Shown here in pieces: positions 1,050 to 19,297 of a DNA stretch of 64,000 nucleotides. The first letter of the stretch is position 1; every line of letters starts with the position of its first letter. Location: contig JAJVIO010000008.1 in the NCBI GenBank assembly GCA_022071975.1, positions 62,001 to 126,000 on the forward strand. Reading direction: 5' to 3'. The translations under genes and the position numbers were made by a program. This stretch comes from Planctomycetota bacterium. Its GTDB lineage: Bacteria > Planctomycetota > UBA8742 > UBA2392. The notes under the pieces were generated by a model. That model was not told the origin of the DNA. It was given only the letters and a program-made list of their open reading frames with translations, and did no database searches.

Positions 1050-1526
1050 ATGCGCGTCGGCATCGGATATGACATCCATCAACTGGTAGAAGGCCGCGAC
1101 CTGATCCTCGGCGGCCTGGAAATCCCCTACGACAAGGGGCTCGCCGGCCACTCCGACGCGGACGCGCTGCTGCACGCCATCACCGACGCGCTGCTGGGTG
1201 CCGCGGGCCTGGGCGACATCGGCGAGTACTTCCCCGACACCGACCCGAAATGGAAGGGCGCCGACAGCGGCATGATGCTCAAGGAAGCCTTCAAGAACGT
1301 GCGGCGTCGCGGCTGGGAGGTCGAAAACATTGACTGCAACATCATCGCCCAGGCGCCGAAGCTGAAGCCCTACAAGAGCCAGATGGAGGCCCGCATCGCC
1401 TCACTGCTGGAGATCGAGACGCGCCGCGTGAACGTGAAGGCCCGCACCAATGAGGGGCTCGACGCCGTGGGGCGCGGCGAAGCAATCATCACCCAGGCCG
1501 TGGTGCTGCTGAAGCCGGCGCCGTAA
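1050..1526 (+). CDS. ispF: 2-C-methyl-D-erythritol 2,4-cyclodiphosphate synthase
   Basis: This enzyme closes the cyclodiphosphate ring in the non-mevalonate isoprenoid pathway. The product has 158 residues, the usual family length. It begins [10 protein letters not shown], supplying the Asp-x-His zinc ligands. It continues with [20 protein letters not shown] (third zinc ligand region) and ends with the [18 protein letters not shown] segment that matches the CDP-binding loop. The start at 1050 follows GGAG by 6 bp; an earlier in-frame start at 1017 adds a non-family extension. The gene ends just before cysS, 13 bp apart, so the two are likely co-transcribed. Confidence 0.95.
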
Positions 1527-1539
1527 CCAGAAGCGATCC

Positions 1540-3363
1540 ATGTCCGTCTTGAAGCTTAAAAATACCTACACCAAGGCGCTGGAAGTCTTCCAGCCGCTCG
1601 ATTCGCAGGGCAGGCGCGTCACCATGTACTCGTGCGGCCCCACGGTCTACAGCTACGCCCACATCGGCAACTTCCGCAGCTTCCTGATGGCCGACATCCT
1701 GCGCCGCGTGCTTGAGCGCAACGGCTACGAGGTGAAGCACGTCATGAACATCACCGACGTCGGCCACCTGACGGAAGACGACGTCGCCGACGCCACGGGA
1801 GAAGACAAGCTTCAGAAGGCCGCGCGGGAGATGGGCTGGGACCCGTACAAGCTGGCGCGCCATTACGAAAGCGCCTTCGTCGAGGACGCCCGCAGGCTGC
1901 GCATGAAGAACTACAGCGGCGGCGAGGCAAGCGCACCCGAGCTGCACCCGCGCGCCGCCAGCCACGTGCCGGAGATGCTGGCGGCGATCCAGAAGCTGCT
2001 CGAGAACGAGTTCGCTTACGTCGATGAGCAGGGCCAGGTGTACTACGATATCCAGAAGTTCCCCGAGTACGGGCGGCTCAGCGGTAAGGTGATCGACGAG
2101 CTCGAGGCCGGGGCACGCGTGGCCGTGGGGGAAAACAAGCGCGACCCGCGCGACTTTTACCTGTGGAAGGTGGACCCCAAGCACCTGATGCAGTGGGACC
2201 CCCACAGCGAAAAGGGCTGGGACCCCGCTGACTATGAGCGCTACCGGCAACTGCTGCCCAAGGGCGTGGATACGCGCATCAAGCCGGGCTTTCCCGGCTG
2301 GCACATCGAGTGCTCGGCCATGTCGCGGGCGCACCTGGGCAACCTGATCGACATCCACACCGGCGGTGAGGACAACATCTTCCCGCACCACGAGTGCGAG
2401 ATCGCCCAGAGCTACGGCGCCTTCCATACCCACGTGCCCGGCCCCCACGGTGCTCCTGACGAAGGCTCGCCGCGCAAGGCTTTCGCGCGCTACTGGGTTC
2501 ACGCGCGATTCCTGCTGGTGAACAGCAAGAAGATGAGCAAGCGCGACGGCACGTTCTACACGGTGCGCGACCTGCTTGATCCGCGCGCTGCCGAGCGTGA
2601 GGAGCTTGCGAATCAGCTGGAGCAGGCGGGTTTCAAGGGCGGTCGTGTGCCGGCCAACGTGATCCGTTTCGCGCTGATCAGCAACCAGTACACGCAGCCG
2701 ATGAACTTCAGCATCGAAGCGCTGAAGGCAGCCGGCAACGCGCTGGAACGCATGCAGACCCGCTACGACAAGCTGCGCGAGGCGGTCAGCAACGGCACCG
2801 ACCCGCACCTGGCCGGGGTGGCCTCAGACAAGGTGATGGAGCTGGTCAGCAAGTCTGAAGAGGCCTTCGACGACGCGCTGAACGACAACCTGAACGTTCC
2901 GAACGCGCTGGCAGTGGTGTTCAGTGCCATCAACGAACTCAACACCATGGAGCTTGGCCCGGCCGAGGCCGGTGAAGCCCTGCGCCTGATGGAAAGCTTT
3001 GACGAAGTGCTGGACGTGCTGGACCGCAGCGCGCGTAGCGGCCTGATCACGCGCGAGCAAGCGGCAAGCTGGCTCGACAGCGAGACGCTTGCAGCCAAGG
3101 CCGCGCACCTGAAACACTGGGCCGAGACTCCCGACCGCGAGCAGTTGTGGGAGATGATCGAAGCTGGCCAGTTGCCGATGTATGAGGACCTCGCCCCGAT
3201 CGAGCAGATGGACGCCGAAACCATCGAGCTGTACGTGGCGATCCGCCAGAACGCCCGCAAGGCCAAGGACTTCACAACGGCCGACGCCATCCGCGACGAG
3301 CTAAAGCAGCGCGGCGTGCAGATAGAAGACACACCCCAAGGCTTCCGTTGGGTGCTGGGGTAG
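1540..3363 (+). CDS. cysS: Cysteinyl-tRNA synthetase
   Basis: Charges tRNA-Cys with cysteine. The class I signatures are clear: CGPTVY with the zinc-binding Cys, HIGNFRS (HIGH motif), the GWHIECSAM and HHECEIAQ zinc and active-site segments, and KKMSKRDG (KMSKS motif). The C-terminal helical DALR region ends [18 protein letters not shown] as in other CysS proteins. At 607 residues it is well above the usual 460 or so. The excess is spread through an acidic insertion before residue 230 and in the C-terminal anticodon-binding half. It follows ispF by 13 bp. Confidence 0.96.
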
Positions 3364-3381
3364 GTGATCGAATTCGTTGTA

Positions 3382-3403
3382 GGGACACGCGGCAGCGTGT
3401 CCC
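3382..3403. repeat. REP-like palindrome, copy 1 (GGGACACGC)
   Basis: A perfect stem GGGACACGC / GCGTGTCCC encloses the tetraloop GGCA just after the cysS stop. The same palindrome occurs twice more, in the opposite orientation (loop TGCC), at 33313-33334 and 33360-33380. It lies about 180 bp before a REP-type transposase gene. Confidence 0.75.
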
Positions 3404-3484
3404 TGCTCGGTGGCGGGGTGATCGCGGTTCTCCAGGAGTTTTTCCGCCCGCTGACGTTCAAGACGAGTTCCGAACTTCAGCAGA

Positions 3485-3573
3485 CGCCACGGAGTGGCGC
3501 CAGGATTCTGGCCCACGGCGCAGCCGTGGGATAATCTGGCAATTCACATCACTGGTGCGCCCCGTAGGGGCGC
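3485..3573. repeat. Hairpin set upstream of the RAYT transposase
   Basis: Three stem-loops precede the transposase: CGCCAC/GTGGCG at 3485-3499, CCCACGGC/GCCGTGGG at 3512-3530 and GCGCCCC/GGGGCGC at 3557-3573. The second is followed by ATAATCTGGC. The second and third have near-identical partners after the gene in mirrored order, so the gene and hairpins form one unit. Confidence 0.8.
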
Positions 3574-3586
3574 AGGGAAGGCGTGC

Positions 3587-4039
3587 ATGGCTCACACGTA
3601 CACAAAGCTGCTCTCGCACGTCATCTTCAGCACAAAGAACCGCGATAAGCTGATTCCCCCGTACCTCCTGCCTGACCTTCACGCCTACATCGGGGGAGTC
3701 GTCAAGAGTGTCGGAGGCACAGCGCTGATCGTGGGTGGTGTTGAAGACCACGTCCACATGCTCGTTTTGCTTCCTCCGCGTATCGCTTTGTCTGACGCCA
3801 TGCGCGAGGTCAAGGCAGGATCATCCCGCTGGATGAAAGAGAAGCTGAAGACGGGTGGATCGTTTGCCTGGCAAACGGGGTTCACGGCATTCAGTGTCAG
3901 TCAGTCGCGTGCTGCCGAAACAATCCAGTACGTCGCCACTCAGGCCGAACATCATCGCAAGAAGACGTTCAAGGATGAGTTGCTGGAGTTTCTTGAAGGG
4001 TACGGTGTTGAATACGACGAGAAGTATCTCTGGGATTGA
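3587..4039 (+). CDS. REP-associated tyrosine transposase (Y1, IS200-like)
   Basis: The product has 150 residues and belongs to the Y1 HUH single-strand transposase family. It starts MAHTYTKLLSHVIFSTKNR, as RAYT/IS200-like proteins do. The HUH metal motif is HVHMLV at about residue 51, and the catalytic Tyr candidate is in QYVATQAEHHRKKTF about 20 residues after SVSQSRAAE. The C-terminal GVEYDEKYLWD tail is typical of RAYTs. Flanking mirrored palindromes and dispersed single palindromes elsewhere in the window support a RAYT/REP relationship rather than a transposing IS200. The start at 3587 matches the family N-terminus; a longer reading adds palindrome-encoded residues. The gene appears intact. 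Confidence 0.88.
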   Translation: MAHTYTKLLSHVIFSTKNRDKLIPPYLLPDLHAYIGGVVKSVGGTALIVGGVEDHVHMLVLLPPRIALSDAMREVKAGSSRWMKEKLKTGGSFAWQTGFTAFSVSQSRAAETIQYVATQAEHHRKKTFKDELLEFLEGYGVEYDEKYLWD

Positions 4040-9675: not shown

Positions 9676-10767
9676 TTACTGGAAAACCTGGAACAGCAGG
9701 CTGGCAAAAGTGGTGATCGGCGCCTGTTCGCGGATGTCCTCAAAACCGCTGCGCAGCGTATTGATGGCGTTCAGCGTGTCGTTGAACAGGGTGTCGTCGT
9801 TGAACAGCTTGCCCACGGTGCCTTCGCCGGCGTTCACGCGCTCGACGGTGATGCCGATCTCGTCGGTCGCTTTCTTCACGCTGTCCAGCAGCGCGGGGGT
9901 TTTGCCCACCGCCGACTTGATGTTTTCTCCAGTCTCCTCGTCATTCAGCAGCACGCCGAAGAAACCCTTGCCGCTGTCCACTTTGTCCACGATCGACTTG
10001 ATGCTGCGGGTGGCCCCCACGGTGTTGTCGGTGGCGTCCTCCACGTTGCGCACGATGTTCTTGATGCGCATGGCCGTGTCCGCATCCTCCAGCAGCAACG
10101 AGGCGGCACCTTCGCCCGCGTTGATCTTCTCGGTGATGTCGCGCACGTTGGTCGTGATGCCCTTCGCGTCCTCACTCATCATGCGCACGTTTTCGACTGT
10201 GGCCGCCACGTCGCCCGCAACCTTTTCGTCATAGAGGATGGTGCCCACGGCGCCGCGACCGGCGCGCACGTCCTTCACAACGGCGTTGACGTCCTTGATG
10301 GTGTCCACGGCTACATCGATGCCTTCATTGATGCGGCTGATACCGCGGCTGGCGGCCGTGAACAGGTCTTCAACCAGCTCTCCGCGGATTTTTTCCCCTT
10401 CGGGCCATGGCTCAGGCGACTGGCCGATGTCGAGCGCAATGGCCTTTCCGCCGAAGGCGCTGCTGGGGATGATTTCGGCGTGGCAGTCACGGTTCAGAGT
10501 GATGTCGTCGTCAAGCAGGATGGCGACGTCGACGTTGCCGGTCTTGGCATCAATGTACATGTCCTGCACTTTTCCCTTGGGCACGCCGCTGATCCAGACC
10601 GGCGCGTTCTGCTGCAGGCCCGCGACGTTGGGGAACACGATCACGTACTTCACCTGCGCCACGCCGATCTTGATGCCGCCGGTTCCGCCGACATAAACGG
10701 CGAAATACAGCGCCACGGCGAACGACGCGAAAATCAGCAGGCCGACGATCAGGTCACGAATCTTCAT
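9676..10767 (-). CDS. mlaD: MlaD-type MCE-domain lipid transport protein
   Basis: The product has 363 residues. It is the periplasmic substrate-binding part of an MCE lipid transporter. One N-terminal membrane anchor (residues about 7-25, IVGLLIFASFAVALYFAVY) is followed by a single MCE domain at about 38-120 (VIVFPNVAGLQQNAPVWISGVPKGKVQDM, then IPSSAFGGKAIALDIG). The remainder is a long alpha-helical region with repeated DIxxxINxGEGT-like turns, suited to forming a hexameric needle. It overlaps mlaF by ATGA. Confidence 0.92.
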   Translation of the reverse strand: MKIRDLIVGLLIFASFAVALYFAVYVGGTGGIKIGVAQVKYVIVFPNVAGLQQNAPVWISGVPKGKVQDMYIDAKTGNVDVAILLDDDITLNRDCHAEIIPSSAFGGKAIALDIGQSPEPWPEGEKIRGELVEDLFTAASRGISRINEGIDVAVDTIKDVNAVVKDVRAGRGAVGTILYDEKVAGDVAATVENVRMMSEDAKGITTNVRDITEKINAGEGAASLLLEDADTAMRIKNIVRNVEDATDNTVGATRSIKSIVDKVDSGKGFFGVLLNDEETGENIKSAVGKTPALLDSVKKATDEIGITVERVNAGEGTVGKLFNDDTLFNDTLNAINTLRSGFEDIREQAPITTFASLLFQVFQ

Positions 10768-11762
10768 GCGTCTGTCTCCTCGGGCTCAAGGCTTGGTGTA
10801 GCATTCCGCGGCCCGGCTGTGTCCACCGGTCCCTCGGTTTCTTCCTGCGGTTGCAAAGCGGCCGCGGCGGCTTCTTCTTCACTGAGCAGCACGTAGCCCT
10901 GTTCGGCGGTGGCGACCGGGGCTTCTGATTCAATGGCTTCGAGACTGCGCTGGCTGAGCATGCCCGGCGCGACGCCGCGTATCACGGCTGTATTGGCGCG
11001 GCGGCTGATCGCGCCTTCGCGCCCGCCTGTGATGAAGTGCTGGACTTCCGGGATGGTGCTGGACTGGATTTCTTCGGGCGTTCCGATCTGGATCATGCTG
11101 CCCTTGTAGAACATGCCGATGCGGTCGCCGATCTCGAAAGCGCTGTCCATGTCGTGGGTCACCACGATCTGCGTCATGTGGTGCTCGCGCTTCAGGCGGT
11201 TGATCAGCTTGTCGATCTCGTTGGCGATCACCGGGTCGAGGCCCGACGTCGGCTCGTCGTACAGTACTATGCCGGGGTCAAGCGCCAGCGCGCGGGCCAG
11301 GCCGGCGCGCTTCTTCATGCCGCCCGAGATCTCGGCCGGGTACTTCTCGCGGTCCTGCCAGAGGTTCACGATCTCGAGCTTCTCCTGCACGATCTCGGCG
11401 CGCTTTTTGCGGCTCATTTTGGTGTGCTCGAGGAGCGGCAGCTCGACGTTCTCGAACAGCGTCAGCCAGGCGATCAGCGCTCCGGACTGGAACAGCACCC
11501 CGAACTTGCGCCGCATGATCTCGAGCTCGCGGCGCGACATGGTGGTGATTTCTTCGTTTTCGACGCGGATCGAGCCCTCGTCGGGGGCCATCAGGCCCAC
11601 CATGTGGCGCAGGGTGACGGACTTGCCGGTGCCGGAGTAACCGATGATCACGAAGGTCTCGCCTTCGCGCACGTCGAAACTGAGCTTGTCCAGAATCTGC
11701 CGCCCGGCCAGCACTTTGCTGACGCCCTCGAACTGTACGGCGAGTTTTGGCGAACCGCTCAT
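10764..11762 (-). CDS. mlaF: MlaF-type ABC transporter ATPase
   Basis: The product has 332 residues. It drives lipid movement together with MlaE. Walker A is GYSGTGKS, the Q loop is FQSGAL, the signature is ISGGMKKRAGLARAL (ISGGM as in MlaF), and Walker B is GIVLYDEPTSGLDP, followed by the H-loop VVTHDM. A C-terminal extension of about 80 residues, rich in Ala, Glu and Pro, goes beyond the normal MlaF end and has no visible motif. Overlaps mlaE by ATGA at 11759-11762. Confidence 0.95.
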   Translation of the reverse strand: MSGSPKLAVQFEGVSKVLAGRQILDKLSFDVREGETFVIIGYSGTGKSVTLRHMVGLMAPDEGSIRVENEEITTMSRRELEIMRRKFGVLFQSGALIAWLTLFENVELPLLEHTKMSRKKRAEIVQEKLEIVNLWQDREKYPAEISGGMKKRAGLARALALDPGIVLYDEPTSGLDPVIANEIDKLINRLKREHHMTQIVVTHDMDSAFEIGDRIGMFYKGSMIQIGTPEEIQSSTIPEVQHFITGGREGAISRRANTAVIRGVAPGMLSQRSLEAIESEAPVATAEQGYVLLSEEEAAAAALQPQEETEGPVDTAGPRNATPSLEPEETDA

Positions 11763-12547
11763 AGCACACCGGAAACGAACATCTTCACTATTCTATAGAA
11801 GCTGGTGAGCAGGTAGTTGAAAAACACCACCAGCGTCAGCGACAGAACCACGGTGTTGCGGCTTGCGCGGCCTACTCCCACTGCGCCGCCACTGGTCTTC
11901 ATGCCGATCGCGCATGCCACCGAGCCCGACACGATGCTGAACACGAATGACTTCAGCAGCCCCCAGTAGATGTCCAGGGCCTCAGCGCCATCTTCGGCGA
12001 ACCGAAGATAGTCGGACCACGTCACGCCGAGCTGCAGGTTCGAGACGATTCCGCCGCCGACGATACCGACCAGTGTGCCGATCACCGTCAGCACCGGGCC
12101 CATGATCGACAGGGCCACGATGCGCGGCATCACCACGAAACTGGCCGGGTTGATGCTCATTACCTCGAGCGCGTCGATTTCTTCGGCCACCTGCATGGTG
12201 CCGATCTCGGCCGCCATGCTGGAGCCCACCCGCGCGATGAGCACAAAACCCACCATCCACGGCCCCAGTTCACGAACCATCGCCGCCACCAGCACCAGAC
12301 CCACCAGGTTGGTCTGTCCGAAACGGGCGAACTCAATGCCTACCTGCAGGGCGAACACCATGCCGATCAGCAACATGAAGAAGCTGGCGATCGGGATGGA
12401 CTGGGTGCCGATCACGTGCATCTGTGTGAAGATCGCGCGGCGCCTGCGCCAGATCTGCGTGCTGTGGCCGATGGCCTCAAGCAGCAGCACAAGCGTGAAG
12501 CCCGCGCCTTTCAATGCCCGCGTGATGACGTTGTCCGTCCAGCTCAT
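11759..12547 (-). CDS. mlaE: MlaE-type ABC transporter permease
   Basis: The product has 262 residues. The inner-membrane permease of the MCE system has about five or six spans. Family segments include FFMLLIGMVFALQVGIEFARFG, GPWMVGFVLIARVGSSMAAEIGTMQVAEEIDALEVM (the conserved EIGTMxVxEEIDAL motif of MlaE) and VVLSLTLVVFFNYLLTSF near the C-terminus. It overlaps the upstream lipoprotein gene by ATGA, so the two are translationally coupled. Confidence 0.95.
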   Translation of the reverse strand: MSWTDNVITRALKGAGFTLVLLLEAIGHSTQIWRRRRAIFTQMHVIGTQSIPIASFFMLLIGMVFALQVGIEFARFGQTNLVGLVLVAAMVRELGPWMVGFVLIARVGSSMAAEIGTMQVAEEIDALEVMSINPASFVVMPRIVALSIMGPVLTVIGTLVGIVGGGIVSNLQLGVTWSDYLRFAEDGAEALDIYWGLLKSFVFSIVSGSVACAIGMKTSGGAVGVGRASRNTVVLSLTLVVFFNYLLTSFYRIVKMFVSGVL

Positions 12548-14103
12548 TTGCGGATCTTCAAGCCCCAGAACAGCCTGGTGTAACGGTCTTCGGGGCCGTG
12601 ATGATAGCCGAGCAGCCCGTACAGGATGTTGAAGTCTTCGATGTCACCCGGTTGCGGGCCATAGGCGTTCGGCAGGCGGTCGCGCGCCTGCTTGACCACG
12701 TGCCAATCGAACAGCGGCGCCAGGCTGAGGTCAACGTGGTAGGGGTCTTCCTCATAGCTGAACATGCGGAACAGGGCCTGCACCTTGGTCTCGTCAGGCC
12801 CCGCCTTGACGCTGAAGAACTTGAAGAACGGTCCGTAGGCGTTATCGAACTTCTCGTCGTTGAACGGAAAGATCGACAGCATGTCGAAGCTGACCGTGCC
12901 GTCGGTGTCCTTGGCGTACTTCATCAACGGCCAGACCCGCACCAGGTGCTTGGTGCGGATGGTGCCGTCCGGTTCAGGCAGGTAGCGCTTGAAATTCGCG
13001 AAAAACAGCGGGAACACCTGGTAGCGCGTTTCCGTGTACTCCGGCAACTGGTCTTCGTAGTACCAGAACAGCGGCCACAAGACGTTGATCGCTGTGCTGG
13101 TGCCGGCCGGCGTCTTGCGTTCGGAGTAATCCCACAGCGGCCATACGCGGTACTGCTTGAAGTTGTCGCCCTTGGCATAGCGGAAGATCGGCCAGAACGC
13201 GTCGATGATGGTGGTGTCGCTGAGTTCCGCGCGGGTGTAACTGAACATCGGGTAGTTCAGCACGAACAGCATGCTGAAGTTGGTGGTCACCGCGCTGGTC
13301 TTGAGCCCGAAGAGCGGATACACCATCAGCGCTTCCCGCGGGTACTTTTTATCCATGGCCTCGCGGTCGTAGCGGAACAGCGGCCACAGCACGGTCCAGC
13401 GGTCGGCCACGGGGAGCTTCTTGGTGCCGCCGGTGATTTCGTCCGGCACCTCCTTCCAGACCTCGGTGCGGCTGAACAACGGCATCACGCCGTAGGTGCG
13501 GTAGCCGGGACCGTAGCCCCACTTCACGATTGGGAACGGCAGGTAATAGGTGACGCGCCCCTGGCGGCGCAGCTCGACGTACAGCGGGAACATCACGAAG
13601 CGGACTTCGTCGTTGCCGAACACGCCCTTCAGGTTGCCGCCAAAGGGTGCCACGGCGAAGTGCGAGCCTTCGATTGTGCTTTCGCCGCCAAACACCAGCG
13701 GGAAGAAGAAGTAATCGAGCTCGCGGTGGCCGGGCGCGAAACTTACGTCGTTCCACCACACGAAGGGCAGCGCATGGAAGCGTGTCTCGCGGCGGCCTTC
13801 CCAACCCGGCCGTTCGCGTTCGCGGTAGCGGCTGAGGGGGTAGAAGAACAGGTGGTCTTCTTCATAGGCCGAAGGATCGCGGATGTAGCGGTAGAAGGGG
13901 CGCACGGTGGCGCTGAAGTAGCCGTCGCGACGCTCTTCCTGCTCTACGAAAGGCCCAAGCGCGCGGGAGGTGGCGTTGCCCTGCGCATCGATGCTCTCGT
14001 TGAAGAACGGCCAGGCATACGTGCGTACAGGCGGCTTGTCGCCTCCGACGACGCAGCCGCACAGACCGACTGCAAGCACAAACATGGCCAGACAAACGCG
14101 CAT
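12544..14103 (-). CDS. Lipoprotein with about 20 WPLF-type repeats (unknown function)
   Basis: The product has 519 residues and I do not recognise its family. A short signal peptide ends in the lipobox LCGC at residue 17, so it is probably a lipoprotein. The mature protein carries a recurring aromatic-aromatic-Pro-Leu-Phe-x-Tyr motif at about residues 30, 87, 133, 171, 207, 239, 261, 284, 303, 320, 342, 363, 390, 411, 444 and 462, roughly every 20 residues. Examples are LWPLFRY, FWPIFRY, VWPLWDY and LWPLFWY. The spacing suggests a repeated beta-strand unit, as in a barrel or solenoid. It is the first gene of the mlaEFD operon and is coupled to mlaE by ATGA, so a role as an outer-envelope partner in lipid transport is a reasonable inference. 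Confidence 0.85.
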   Translation of the reverse strand: MRVCLAMFVLAVGLCGCVVGGDKPPVRTYAWPFFNESIDAQGNATSRALGPFVEQEERRDGYFSATVRPFYRYIRDPSAYEEDHLFFYPLSRYRERERPGWEGRRETRFHALPFVWWNDVSFAPGHRELDYFFFPLVFGGESTIEGSHFAVAPFGGNLKGVFGNDEVRFVMFPLYVELRRQGRVTYYLPFPIVKWGYGPGYRTYGVMPLFSRTEVWKEVPDEITGGTKKLPVADRWTVLWPLFRYDREAMDKKYPREALMVYPLFGLKTSAVTTNFSMLFVLNYPMFSYTRAELSDTTIIDAFWPIFRYAKGDNFKQYRVWPLWDYSERKTPAGTSTAINVLWPLFWYYEDQLPEYTETRYQVFPLFFANFKRYLPEPDGTIRTKHLVRVWPLMKYAKDTDGTVSFDMLSIFPFNDEKFDNAYGPFFKFFSVKAGPDETKVQALFRMFSYEEDPYHVDLSLAPLFDWHVVKQARDRLPNAYGPQPGDIEDFNILYGLLGYHHGPEDRYTRLFWGLKIRK

Positions 14104-14143: not shown

Positions 14144-15169
14144 TCAGACCGCCACGGCCGGGCGGCGGCCGATCAGTTCATCTTCCGGCACGCCGACGAC
14201 GCTTTCGTAGTGGCGCGTGATCTCGTCGAGGATCTCGTGGAACTCCTCTCGGGTCTCCACCCGCGTGATCTGCGCGCGGTACTGGGCGCTGCCGGGGATG
14301 TCGCGCACGTACCAGGTCGCGTAGCGGCGCACCACCTGGCAGGCATGGCGCGCGTCAAACCCCTCCAGCAGCAGCTCAAAGTGCTCGCGCAGCACCGCCA
14401 GGCGCTCGATCGGGTCCGGCGTCGGCGTCACCACACGGCCGTGAAGCTGCATCTCGTCAATCTCGCGGAAAAGCCAGGGGCGGCCCCACACGCCGCGGCC
14501 GAGCATCACGCCGTCGCAGCCGGTCTCGCGCAGGATACGGATCGCGTCCTCGGGCTCCTTGATGTCGCCGCTGGCGATCACGGGGATGCTGAGCGCGGCC
14601 TTGAGTTCGCCGGTTCGAGTGTGATCGGCGAAGCCCTTGAAACTCTGGGCGCGGGTGCGCGGGTGGATGGTGATCGCCACCATGCCCGCCTCCTGGGCCA
14701 TCTTTCCGATCTGCACGAAGTTCAGGCAGTTCTCGTTCACGCCGGCGCGGATCTTGACCGTGACCGGGATCTTCACGGCGTTCACCATGGCCTCGAAGCA
14801 TTTGGCCGCGCGCTCGGGGTAGGCCATCAGGGCCGAGCCCGCGCCGCATTTGCCGATCTTGGGCACCGGGCAGCCCATGTTCAGGTCCACGGTGTCGTAG
14901 CCCTCGGCTTCGGCCATCTTGCAAGCCTCGGCCAGCCATTGCGGGTTGTTGCCTGCGAACTGGATGCCGACGGGACGCTCGTCCTCGCGGTAGTACTTGA
15001 GCGTCATCATCTTGCGGTTGTGGTGCAGGAAGCTCTCGACCTTCAGCATCTCCACGTAGGTCAGGCCGGCACCGTAGCGCTTGCACAGCACGCGGTAGGC
15101 ACGGTTGCTGATGCCGGCCAAGGGGGCCGCCACCAGGTTGTTCTTCAGTTGGAGATCGCCGTATCGCAC
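14144..15169 (-). CDS. dusB: tRNA-dihydrouridine synthase
   Basis: An FMN enzyme that reduces uridine to dihydrouridine in tRNA. The product has 341 residues. Family marks are NNLVAAPLAGISNRAYR, the catalytic Cys in DLNMGCPVPKIGKCGAGSALM, VTVKIRAGVNE, the IHPRTRAQSFKG segment and GCDGVMLGRGVWGRPWLF. A GTG at 15169 gives the family-length N-terminus VRYGDLQLKNN; a GTG at 15187 would add six residues, and neither has a clear ribosome binding site. It could join the same transcript as the following lipoprotein-mla operon, 40 bp downstream. Confidence 0.92.
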   Translation of the reverse strand: MRYGDLQLKNNLVAAPLAGISNRAYRVLCKRYGAGLTYVEMLKVESFLHHNRKMMTLKYYREDERPVGIQFAGNNPQWLAEACKMAEAEGYDTVDLNMGCPVPKIGKCGAGSALMAYPERAAKCFEAMVNAVKIPVTVKIRAGVNENCLNFVQIGKMAQEAGMVAITIHPRTRAQSFKGFADHTRTGELKAALSIPVIASGDIKEPEDAIRILRETGCDGVMLGRGVWGRPWLFREIDEMQLHGRVVTPTPDPIERLAVLREHFELLLEGFDARHACQVVRRYATWYVRDIPGSAQYRAQITRVETREEFHEILDEITRHYESVVGVPEDELIGRRPAVAV

Positions 15170-15331
15170 GCCTAACCACCGCCACACGCAAGGTTTAGCC
15201 GGTCAGTATGAAACAGGTGGGGGAGCGGTCAATCGGGCGTGCCTTACATTCTGTAGAATTTCGGAGCTGATTGCTTTTCCATGGCGTAGAATATGGAGTC
15301 GCTTGGACGGAAACGGTTACTGGAGACGGAT

Positions 15332-16897
15332 ATGGGACGCATCGGGCTGGTGATTGCAGGGACGCTGGGGCTGGCGCTGCCGCTGGGCGCGCAGGGCATC
15401 ACGGTAAAGAGCAGGGACGGCCACGTAGAAGTGCATGGCGAAGCCGAGAAGGCCGCGCCGGGCGACGCCATCGGCCCGGGCATGGTGAAGGGCGATCCCG
15501 AAGCCATGAGCGGCTTCGTGCGCGACGTGCAGAAGCTGCAGCACGGCCTGCTGGCGGATGGCGACCTCACCCAGGAAGAAATCAACACACTGGAAGAAAA
15601 GGCCCGCAAGAAGCTCGAGAAAGACATGGCCAAGCTCGGCGAGCGAGAGCGCGAAGCCGCCGCCGAGAGCGACCCGGAAGAAAAGGCCGAGCAGACGCTG
15701 GACGTCCGCAAAGACCGCTACCGCGCCAGCCTGCGCGCCCTTGAACGCGACCTGCTGTTCAGCGTGGAAAGCATTCGCGACGCCGGCCGCGGCAAGCTGG
15801 AGAGCGAGTTGGACGACCTGTCAGACAAGATCAAGGACACCTTCGCCGACCTGCACGACAAGATCGACGACGGCATGCCGGACAGCTGGCCGGGCACCTT
15901 GAACGATGCCCGCAAGTTCCACACCGAGTACAGCACGCAGATCGACAAGTGGGCCGGCAAGATCGGCGTGAACGCCGAAGTGCCCGACGCCCGCGAGCGC
16001 GTGGTGGAAATGAAGAAGTCACTGATCGCCCGCGTGAAGCGCCTGCGCAAGATCGGCAGTGACAAGTACCAGGACCAGCTGGATGACGTGGAGGAACGCA
16101 TCTACGCCAGCTTCGAAGGCCTTGAAGACAAGCTGGAAGACGCCGAACCCGCCGCATGGACCGGTATTCTGAAAGACGCCGACAAGTTCATGCTGAACTA
16201 CACGGCCGAGCTGGACGGGTGGGCCAAGAAAATCGGCGCCGACGAAGCGCTTCCCAGTCCGCTGGAGCGCCTGGGCGAATTGAACCGCGACCTTGACCAG
16301 AAAATTGAAGACCTGCGCCGTATCGGCGGCGAGGAGTACGAAGACGCCATTGATGAAATCGCCGAGCGCGTGGATGAGGTGTTTGCCGAGCTGAAGGACA
16401 AGATTCTCGACGGGTCAAAAGAGACCTGGGCCGCCACGCTGGAAACCGCTGCCAAGTACCACAAGCAGTTCAGCGAAGCCATCGAGATGTGGGAACGCAA
16501 GATCGTCGGCGCAAACGGCAAGATCGACCGCAAGCTGCCCGAGACTCCGAATCCGGACGTCGGCCCCAGCCCGGAAACGCCCGAAAAGGACGTCGTGCTG
16601 GGCAAGGGCGAGCACATGGACATCATCGAGGGCGTGCGCGTTGCGCGCCTGATGCCGCTGCCGCGCAAGCAGCTGGGTCTGGATCACGGCCTGTCGGTCA
16701 ATGAGATCGTGGACGCAGACAAGGCGCTGGCCCGCGCCAGGCTGGAGGTCTACGACATCATCCTCGAGGTGAATGGCGCGAAGATGGACAGCCGCACGGA
16801 ACTGCGCGACGCGCTGGCCGGTATCGAGAAGGGCAAGGAATATGAAGTCGTGATCCTGCGCAACGGCGAGAAGAAGACGCTGAAGGCGACCCGTTAG
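15332..16897 (+). CDS. Exported protein with three 90-residue repeats and a PDZ domain
   Basis: The product has 521 residues; I do not recognise the family of its central part. An N-terminal signal (VIAGTLGLALPLGA) is followed by an acidic helical region. Three repeats start near residues 132, 222 and 312 at an exact period of 90. Equivalent points are W186, W276, W366 and W207, W297, W387, with ends KWAGKIG, GWAKKIG and MWERKIV. Each repeat is predicted helical and highly charged. A Pro-rich linker leads to a PDZ-like domain at about 425-521 (VNEIVDADKALARARLEVYDIILEVNGAKMDSRTELRDAL). The start at 15332 has GGAG 7 bp upstream. It precedes a DegP-like protease, so an envelope quality-control or scaffolding role is possible. 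Confidence 0.85.
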   Translation: MGRIGLVIAGTLGLALPLGAQGITVKSRDGHVEVHGEAEKAAPGDAIGPGMVKGDPEAMSGFVRDVQKLQHGLLADGDLTQEEINTLEEKARKKLEKDMAKLGEREREAAAESDPEEKAEQTLDVRKDRYRASLRALERDLLFSVESIRDAGRGKLESELDDLSDKIKDTFADLHDKIDDGMPDSWPGTLNDARKFHTEYSTQIDKWAGKIGVNAEVPDARERVVEMKKSLIARVKRLRKIGSDKYQDQLDDVEERIYASFEGLEDKLEDAEPAAWTGILKDADKFMLNYTAELDGWAKKIGADEALPSPLERLGELNRDLDQKIEDLRRIGGEEYEDAIDEIAERVDEVFAELKDKILDGSKETWAATLETAAKYHKQFSEAIEMWERKIVGANGKIDRKLPETPNPDVGPSPETPEKDVVLGKGEHMDIIEGVRVARLMPLPRKQLGLDHGLSVNEIVDADKALARARLEVYDIILEVNGAKMDSRTELRDALAGIEKGKEYEVVILRNGEKKTLKATR

Positions 16898-18427: not shown

Positions 18428-19297
18428 TCACGACCGCAGGGGCTCAGCGCGGTATTTACTGCGGTCCTTTAGCATTCTTCCAACCGGCCACTCGGGCTCG
18501 TGGTAGAAGAAACAGGTCGTGTTGCGCTCTACCACTTTGGGGTACAGCTTCTCGCGCGCGTGATAGCTGCCGCCTGCGTTGATGTCGTATGCGCTGATCC
18601 AGGCCGTGGGAACGTGGCTGATGGTCGGTACCAGGTCGCCGAAGAACACGCCGTATTCTCCGTTGCTCTCAAACCAGATTACCGCGTGGTTCTCCGTGTG
18701 GCCGTTGGTGAACTCGAAGTACACGCCGGGCACGATTTCGCCGTCGCCTTGAACGGTGCGCAACTTCGACTGCAGGGGCTTCAGTGTCTCGGGCGCGTAG
18801 CTGGCCTTGTGCAGGTTCGAAGGATTGATCGCGATTTCCCACTCACCCTTCTGCGCCACGTACACGGCGTTGGGGAAGCTGGGCACGTACTTTCCCTCCA
18901 CCAGCTTGCACAGGCCGCCGGAGTGGTCCCAATGCAGGTGGGTGCAGGCCACGGTATCCACAGTTGACGGGTCAACACCCTGGGCGGCGACCAGTTGGTC
19001 CAGCGTGGGGCCGAGCCGTTCAATACCGTAACGCTCGTGCAGGTCAGGCGGAATTGCCTGCCCGATGCCGCTCTCGACCACCACGGTGTGGGTGGGCGTC
19101 TGCACCAGCAGCGGGCGCATGGCCATTTTCACGCGGTTGTTCCCGTCGGCCGGCAGCTGCTTTTCCCACATCACCTTTGGCACGATGCCGTACATTGCGC
19201 CGCCATCGAGGCTCAGCCAGCCATCCAGCAGGCTGGTGACGCGGATGTCGCCGATCCGCGTGGTGGGGGTCCCGGTGAAGTAGTCCACGACTCTCAT
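18428..19297 (-). CDS. Metallo-beta-lactamase fold hydrolase
   Basis: The product has 289 residues. The zinc motif is THLHWDHSGG (HxHxDH), followed by a His in FTNGHTENHAVI and an Asp in GVFFGDLVPT, giving the usual dinuclear site. The architecture and length match the AHL-lactonase-like and MBL-fold lactonase subfamily. No signal peptide is visible. The substrate cannot be read from the sequence. It starts with ATGA overlap on the ClC gene, so it is the second gene of a two-gene operon. Confidence 0.88.
   Translation of the reverse strand: MRVVDYFTGTPTTRIGDIRVTSLLDGWLSLDGGAMYGIVPKVMWEKQLPADGNNRVKMAMRPLLVQTPTHTVVVESGIGQAIPPDLHERYGIERLGPTLDQLVAAQGVDPSTVDTVACTHLHWDHSGGLCKLVEGKYVPSFPNAVYVAQKGEWEIAINPSNLHKASYAPETLKPLQSKLRTVQGDGEIVPGVYFEFTNGHTENHAVIWFESNGEYGVFFGDLVPTISHVPTAWISAYDINAGGSYHAREKLYPKVVERNTTCFFYHEPEWPVGRMLKDRSKYRAEPLRS

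Follow-up and report, generated by a model that had tools for sequence, protein, structure and literature searches.

How does the lipid pump MlaEFD reach the outer membrane in bacteria that have neither MlaA nor MlaC nor a barrelled MlaD? The question is raised by an operon in a 64,000-nucleotide stretch of a Planctomycetota bacterium (assembly GCA_022071975.1, contig JAJVIO010000008.1, positions 62,001 to 126,000; hereafter the window), in which mlaE, mlaF and mlaD are headed by the gene for a repeat protein that we call RPT. According to the sections of PMC10665443 used here, MlaABC is mostly proteobacterial, and the PVC group lacks altogether the MlaD beta-barrel with which the MlaD of Veillonella spans the envelope; the same sections ask whether non-homologous proteins replace missing envelope components. 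This makes RPT a natural candidate for a component on the outer-membrane side, and it may supply a piece so far lacking from the account of how planctomycetes move lipids between their two membranes. It is a concrete candidate, since it occurs in at least 48 families, is coupled to one MlaE orthologue and is contained in no family library that was searched. A further point of interest is its long beta repeat with a fixed number of units. With moderate confidence, we propose that RPT serves one orthologous MlaEFD of Planctomycetota as its dedicated accessory lipoprotein, and that it links the pump to the outer membrane.

The genes at the locus are transcribed in the order dus, RPT, mlaE, mlaF, mlaD. 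The same four-base ATGA overlap was found at all three junctions from RPT onward (RPT/mlaE, mlaE/mlaF and mlaF/mlaD), and at the first of these the stop codon TGA of RPT overlaps the start codon ATG of mlaE. As judged by Pfam, the three overlapping downstream genes encode MlaE, an ATP-binding cassette (ABC) ATPase and an MCE-domain MlaD, which is the composition of an Mla/MCE operon. The RPT N-terminus (MRVCLAMFVLAVGLCGC) has the signal peptide and lipobox cysteine of a bacterial lipoprotein (lipobox LCGC, Cys17), and RPT is predicted to be acylated at Cys17. A previous sequence-only reading of the window had described a 519-residue lipoprotein that is translationally coupled to mlaE; the open reading frame (ORF), signal peptide and lipobox bear out the first point, and the stop/start overlap bears out the second.

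To the extent that the association of RPT with mlaE can be read from other genomes, it was found to be widespread. MlaE lay beside RPT in 26 of the first 30 loci, including all 15 from the window's own family, where it was the next gene downstream. A broader sample comprised 60 loci from outside that family (58 genomes, 47 families), picked from strong profile matches; in 53 of these, the first mla gene encountered downstream of RPT in the same orientation encoded MlaE, and its first aligned base fell between -6 and 321 bases from the stop codon of RPT. Three further loci had RPT elsewhere in the mla cluster, either between MlaF and MlaD (loci L114 and L128 in our numbering) or just after MlaF (L131). 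The refuting outcome named by the sequence-only reading, RPT homologues located mostly away from mla genes, was thus not what was found. Moreover, among 38 MlaE matches in 12 RPT-containing genomes, 30 were taken as loci, and exactly one per genome was linked to RPT. On this genomic evidence, a partnership between RPT and MlaEFD is well supported. The median length of MlaD was 381.5 residues in RPT clusters (n = 52) versus 354 elsewhere (n = 19, several of them fragments or read in other frames), a difference to which we attach no weight.

The layout of three loci deserves mention in its own right. In L002 (genome G002, 1414-3843), RPT and MlaE share one reading frame by way of an extra C near the RPT stop, which is either a read error or a true fusion. 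In L087 (1261-7244), the cluster continues after RPT with two copies each of MlaE and MlaD and a single MlaF, and L202 (genome G000, contig C57) is a further mla cluster of its genome with MlaE, MlaF and two MlaD-like genes but without RPT.

The MlaE copies linked to RPT also cluster on a phylogenetic tree. On a tree of 105 MlaE rows, from which duplicates and rows under 180 aa had been dropped, the RPT label required 4 changes, compared with 35.4 when labels were shuffled, and none of 500 shuffles gave as low a number. The main RPT clade contained 49 RPT-linked rows, two rows of the MlaF-RPT-MlaD type and six rows without RPT. A further MlaE pair (L122 and L127), which is strongly diverged, likewise comes with its own RPT. 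Identity within this pair was 55% for the RPTs and 48% for the MlaEs, whereas identity to the eight other copies compared was 31-38% and 21-26%, respectively. RPT and MlaE were therefore duplicated and diverged as a unit, which is good evidence of functional coupling.

Database searches revealed no relatives of RPT among described families. The window protein had no match in Pfam or NCBIfam at E<=1 or among PDB sequences at E<=10, and 47 relatives had none in Pfam or NCBIfam at E<=0.01; these searches covered MlaA (PF04333) and MlaC (PF05494), neither of which was matched at the same thresholds, and the MORN signature was not found by Pfam in the 47 members. When a 26-member alignment was compared with Pfam, the only matches were the EF-hand insert present in a single member and a weak one to DUF3932, and the 26-row profile gave two weak matches in the PDB (best E 0.51). 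A plasmid search yielded no match, and literature searches found no paper on RPT. The empty Pfam, NCBIfam and PDB sequence searches agree with the earlier statement that no described Mla partner has this make-up. As a single-protein query, the window RPT found a match in 35 of 60 related genomes. With the 26-row profile, matches were obtained in 164 of the 392 Planctomycetota genomes sampled (145 strongly, with best E < 1e-45, and 19 weakly), and in 75 of 217 at high completeness. RPT is thus present in at least 48 Planctomycetota families, 47 besides the window's own, and identity to the window protein was mostly 19-36% for members of other families in the 47-row alignment. All 15 RPT loci in named genomes carried Planctomycetota titles, with search patterns that reach close relatives only.

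The sequence-only reading had reported about twenty aromatic-Pro-Leu-Phe-x-Tyr repeats. The periodic repeat was confirmed, but the motif proved to be degenerate (hydrophobic-aromatic-Pro-Leu/Phe-aromatic-x-Tyr/Trp): the strict form aromatic-P-L-F-x-Y occurs only 2 times, aromatic-Pro-[LIFVM] 14 times and hydrophobic-Pro-hydrophobic 20 times. A four-position hydrophobic-Pro motif was found 15 times in RPT, whereas 2000 shuffled sequences contained it 2.8 times on average and never more than 9 times. Twenty Pro columns are kept in at least 60% of the 47 relatives, most of these in at least 94%, at a spacing of 8-33 residues (mostly 17-24); the repeat number is therefore nearly fixed, which is unusual among repeat proteins. 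When 878 units were pooled around the Pro, hydrophobic residues peaked at positions -4, -2, -1, +1, +2 and +4, and positions beyond about 5 were polar. The lipobox Cys column was filled in 43 of 47 relatives, and Asp, the residue with which the E. coli lipoprotein sorting rule is concerned, was found at position +2 in none of these 43. By that rule, this points to the outer membrane; RPT is probably anchored there and would reach into the periplasm. Separately, one RPT of the window's family (L015, 1042-2817, genome G007) carries an EF-hand calcium-binding insert between early repeats, as detected by Pfam.

Structure prediction, which the sequence-only reading had put forward as a check, gave an extended all-beta repeat. 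The AlphaFold2 model of full-length RPT, built from the 47-row alignment, was confident, with a mean predicted local distance difference test score (pLDDT) of 89 and a predicted template modelling score (pTM) of 0.75; apart from the signal peptide and a single short helix, it consisted of about 46 strands, which were mostly 5-9 residues long with charged ends. The isolated core (residues 226-412) was predicted with pLDDT 94 and pTM 0.80. A Foldseek search of the core against the PDB returned nothing at E<=0.001, and the propeller and teneurin rows obtained with the full model were rejected as noise (TMq <=0.16 among the matches listed, root-mean-square deviation (rmsd) over 20 A). When the core was aligned with VIA-align, CPAP/SAS-4 ranked first (Z 12.0, 143 residues aligned, rmsd 8.8), followed by MORN1 (Z 11.4, 161 aligned, rmsd 7.0) and OspA (Z 10.1, 153 aligned, rmsd 9.4), with VDAC-type barrels below these single-layer sheets (Z 7-8, rmsd ~15). 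For the full-length model, VDAC came first (Z 8.1), and OspA (7.7) and ApoB (7.2) scored lower, so that the full-length comparison decides for neither fold; of bridge-type lipid transfer proteins, only LptD chains were among the listed fold matches of the RPT models. RPT is predicted to be a meander of short strands, with a core that appears closer to free-standing single-layer sheets than to a porin. Taken together, the RPT proteins make up a repeat family that had no name before, with a predicted membrane anchor and a predicted ribbon shape.

In the arrangement that we propose, the acylated N-terminal Cys would serve RPT as a membrane anchor, with the outer membrane the most likely site, and the rest of the protein would extend into the periplasm as a long antiparallel beta-meander that is mainly one layer thick and has a fixed number of repeats. 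An aromatic stripe would run along the Pro turns and might either carry lipid acyl chains or dock on the MlaD hexamer. In this way RPT would connect MlaEFD with the outer membrane, as MlaA/MlaC or the MlaD beta-barrel do in other bacteria. We infer the contact with MlaD as well as the path and direction of the lipids. A stronger version, which we advance tentatively, is that RPT forms the missing outer-membrane end of planctomycete Mla and that its aromatic stripe is the track for lipids sliding between the MlaD tube and the outer membrane. At an estimated 4.8 A per strand, a flat ribbon of about 46 strands would measure at most ~200 A and could cross much of the periplasm; such a bridge would be unrelated to MlaA/MlaC, the MlaD barrel and AsmA/TamB.

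The main rival to this bridge is a lipid-anchored scaffold or spacer rod that carries no lipid but stabilizes the MlaD tube or fixes the spacing of the membranes, and whose stripe serves only the packing of the sheet. We regard it as rather less likely than our proposal. A repeat number fixed across families would suit a ruler; CPAP/SAS-4, MORN and OspA, whose folds come nearest, are single-layer sheets and to our knowledge not listed as lipid carriers; and the duplicated MlaE has its own RPT. The conserved aromatic stripe, however, appears stronger than a plain spacer would need.

Alternatively, RPT could work from the periplasm at the inner membrane, regulating MlaE/MlaD or helping them to assemble. 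This is unlikely in our judgement, even though the RPT gene adjoins mlaE rather than mlaD in 53 of the 60 loci, and though anammox-like RPT members have a signal peptide without Cys, so that outer-membrane anchoring is not universal. The lack of Asp at +2 among the RPT lipoproteins speaks against such a location, and about 480 mature residues would be large for an assembly factor.

Still less probable is a transmembrane beta-barrel in the outer membrane that acts as a pore partner for Mla. The sequence-only reading had considered a barrel or a lipid-binding solenoid for the periodic strands; it is supported in part, as AlphaFold2 predicts an extended beta repeat, and VDAC, TOM40, porins and LptD were among the matches of the full-length model. 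A transmembrane barrel is nevertheless disfavoured, because the strands are short with charged ends and the core is closer to single-layer sheets than to barrels. Moreover, a barrel with an N-terminal lipid anchor would be unusual.

The absence of MlaA and MlaC was also considered as evidence that RPT replaces them. Each of the two was found in 3 of 55 RPT genomes, and in two genomes (G120 and G260) both were present, away from RPT. In 26 planctomycete control genomes, in which the 47-row profile found no RPT, MlaA was likewise rare (2 of 26). The absence of MlaA is therefore a feature of the phylum and no pointer to RPT as its replacement, and this control, which concerned MlaA only, weakened the argument from MlaA/MlaC absence.

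This control result weighs against our proposal, as do several other observations. MlaE is near universal (383 of 392 sampled Planctomycetota genomes), and more than half of the sampled genomes have MlaE without a detected RPT; the pump can therefore work without it. Within the main RPT clade, the six MlaE copies L179, L186, L187, L190, L199 and L200 lack RPT, and in several of them the upstream ORF reads like nadD. Four of the 60 RPT loci are unlinked to mla (L076, L077, L078 and L089), and three of these four come from the class to which the window belongs; an MlaF-profile match at L078 was rejected as mla, as the surrounding ORFs read, without a family search, as an iron-type ABC system. 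The Cys column is empty in four of 47 rows: L078 is truncated by a contig end, the N-terminus of L085 is a different one, and those of L107 and L108 are hydrophobic but contain no such Cys. Finally, the parity test for two-faced strands was only modest (P 0.0125). The unlinked loci and the genomes that keep an RPT-type MlaE with a nadD-like gene upstream would also fit an accidental operon structure in which RPT has no role in lipid transport, but this is highly improbable, given that the linkage has held over at least 47 families at ~20-30% identity and that RPT was duplicated together with the second MlaE.

RPT can further be compared with known systems. Bridge-like lipid transfer proteins such as LptA/C and AsmA/TamB resemble it, by analogy only, in a proposed long beta structure with a hydrophobic side, but share no sequence match with it. 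OspA is also a lipoprotein; RPT differs from OspA, MORN and the CPAP/SAS-4 TCP10 domain in its invariant-Pro motif, its far greater number of strands and its linkage to mla, and no sequence similarity to them was found. MlaA and PqiC are lipoproteins of MCE systems, and RPT, as its linkage suggests, would likewise be a lipoprotein that accompanies an MCE transporter; its long beta repeat differs from the folds of both. Like the Mla systems described in the sections of PMC10665443 used here (E. coli MlaABCDEF and Veillonella MlaEFD), the RPT cluster has mlaE, mlaF and mlaD in one operon; unlike them, it begins with RPT, to which no component described in those sections corresponds.

The features of the locus are collected in Table 1.

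Table 1. Features of the RPT-mla locus, in window coordinates
Feature	Position	Strand	Basis
RPT, 519-residue repeat lipoprotein (predicted), first gene of the operon	12544..14103	-	ORF and translation, family alignment
RPT signal peptide and lipobox, residues 1-17, Cys17 last	14053..14103	-	sequence; Cys column in 43/47 relatives
RPT repeat region, residues 30-467, beta-hairpin units with conserved hydrophobic-aromatic-Pro turn	12703..14016	-	Pro columns, 878-unit pile-up, AlphaFold2
RPT conserved C-terminal stretch, residues 494-513 (LYGLLGY...RLFW)	12565..12624	-	L494, G496 and L497 invariant or nearly so
mlaE, permease; ATG overlaps RPT stop	11759..12547	-	PF02405, E 1.7e-65
mlaF, ABC ATPase; 4-base overlap with mlaE	10764..11762	-	PF00005, E 5.5e-31
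mlaD, MCE-domain protein, 363 aa; 4-base overlap with mlaF	9676..10767	-	PF02470, E 8.3e-15
dus, 5' of RPT in transcription order, 40-base gap	14144-15187		Dus, confirmed by Pfam

An Rfam search gave no match within the window. Two neighbouring genes were also noted. On the forward strand, 15293-16897 encodes a coiled-coil protein that looks secreted and combines internal repeats with a PDZ domain at the C-terminus; it lies upstream of a gene for an HtrA-like protease. On the reverse strand, 18428-19297 encodes a protein of the metallo-beta-lactamase fold that is similar to YtnP-type lactonases (E 3.8e-59, under the curated cut-off).
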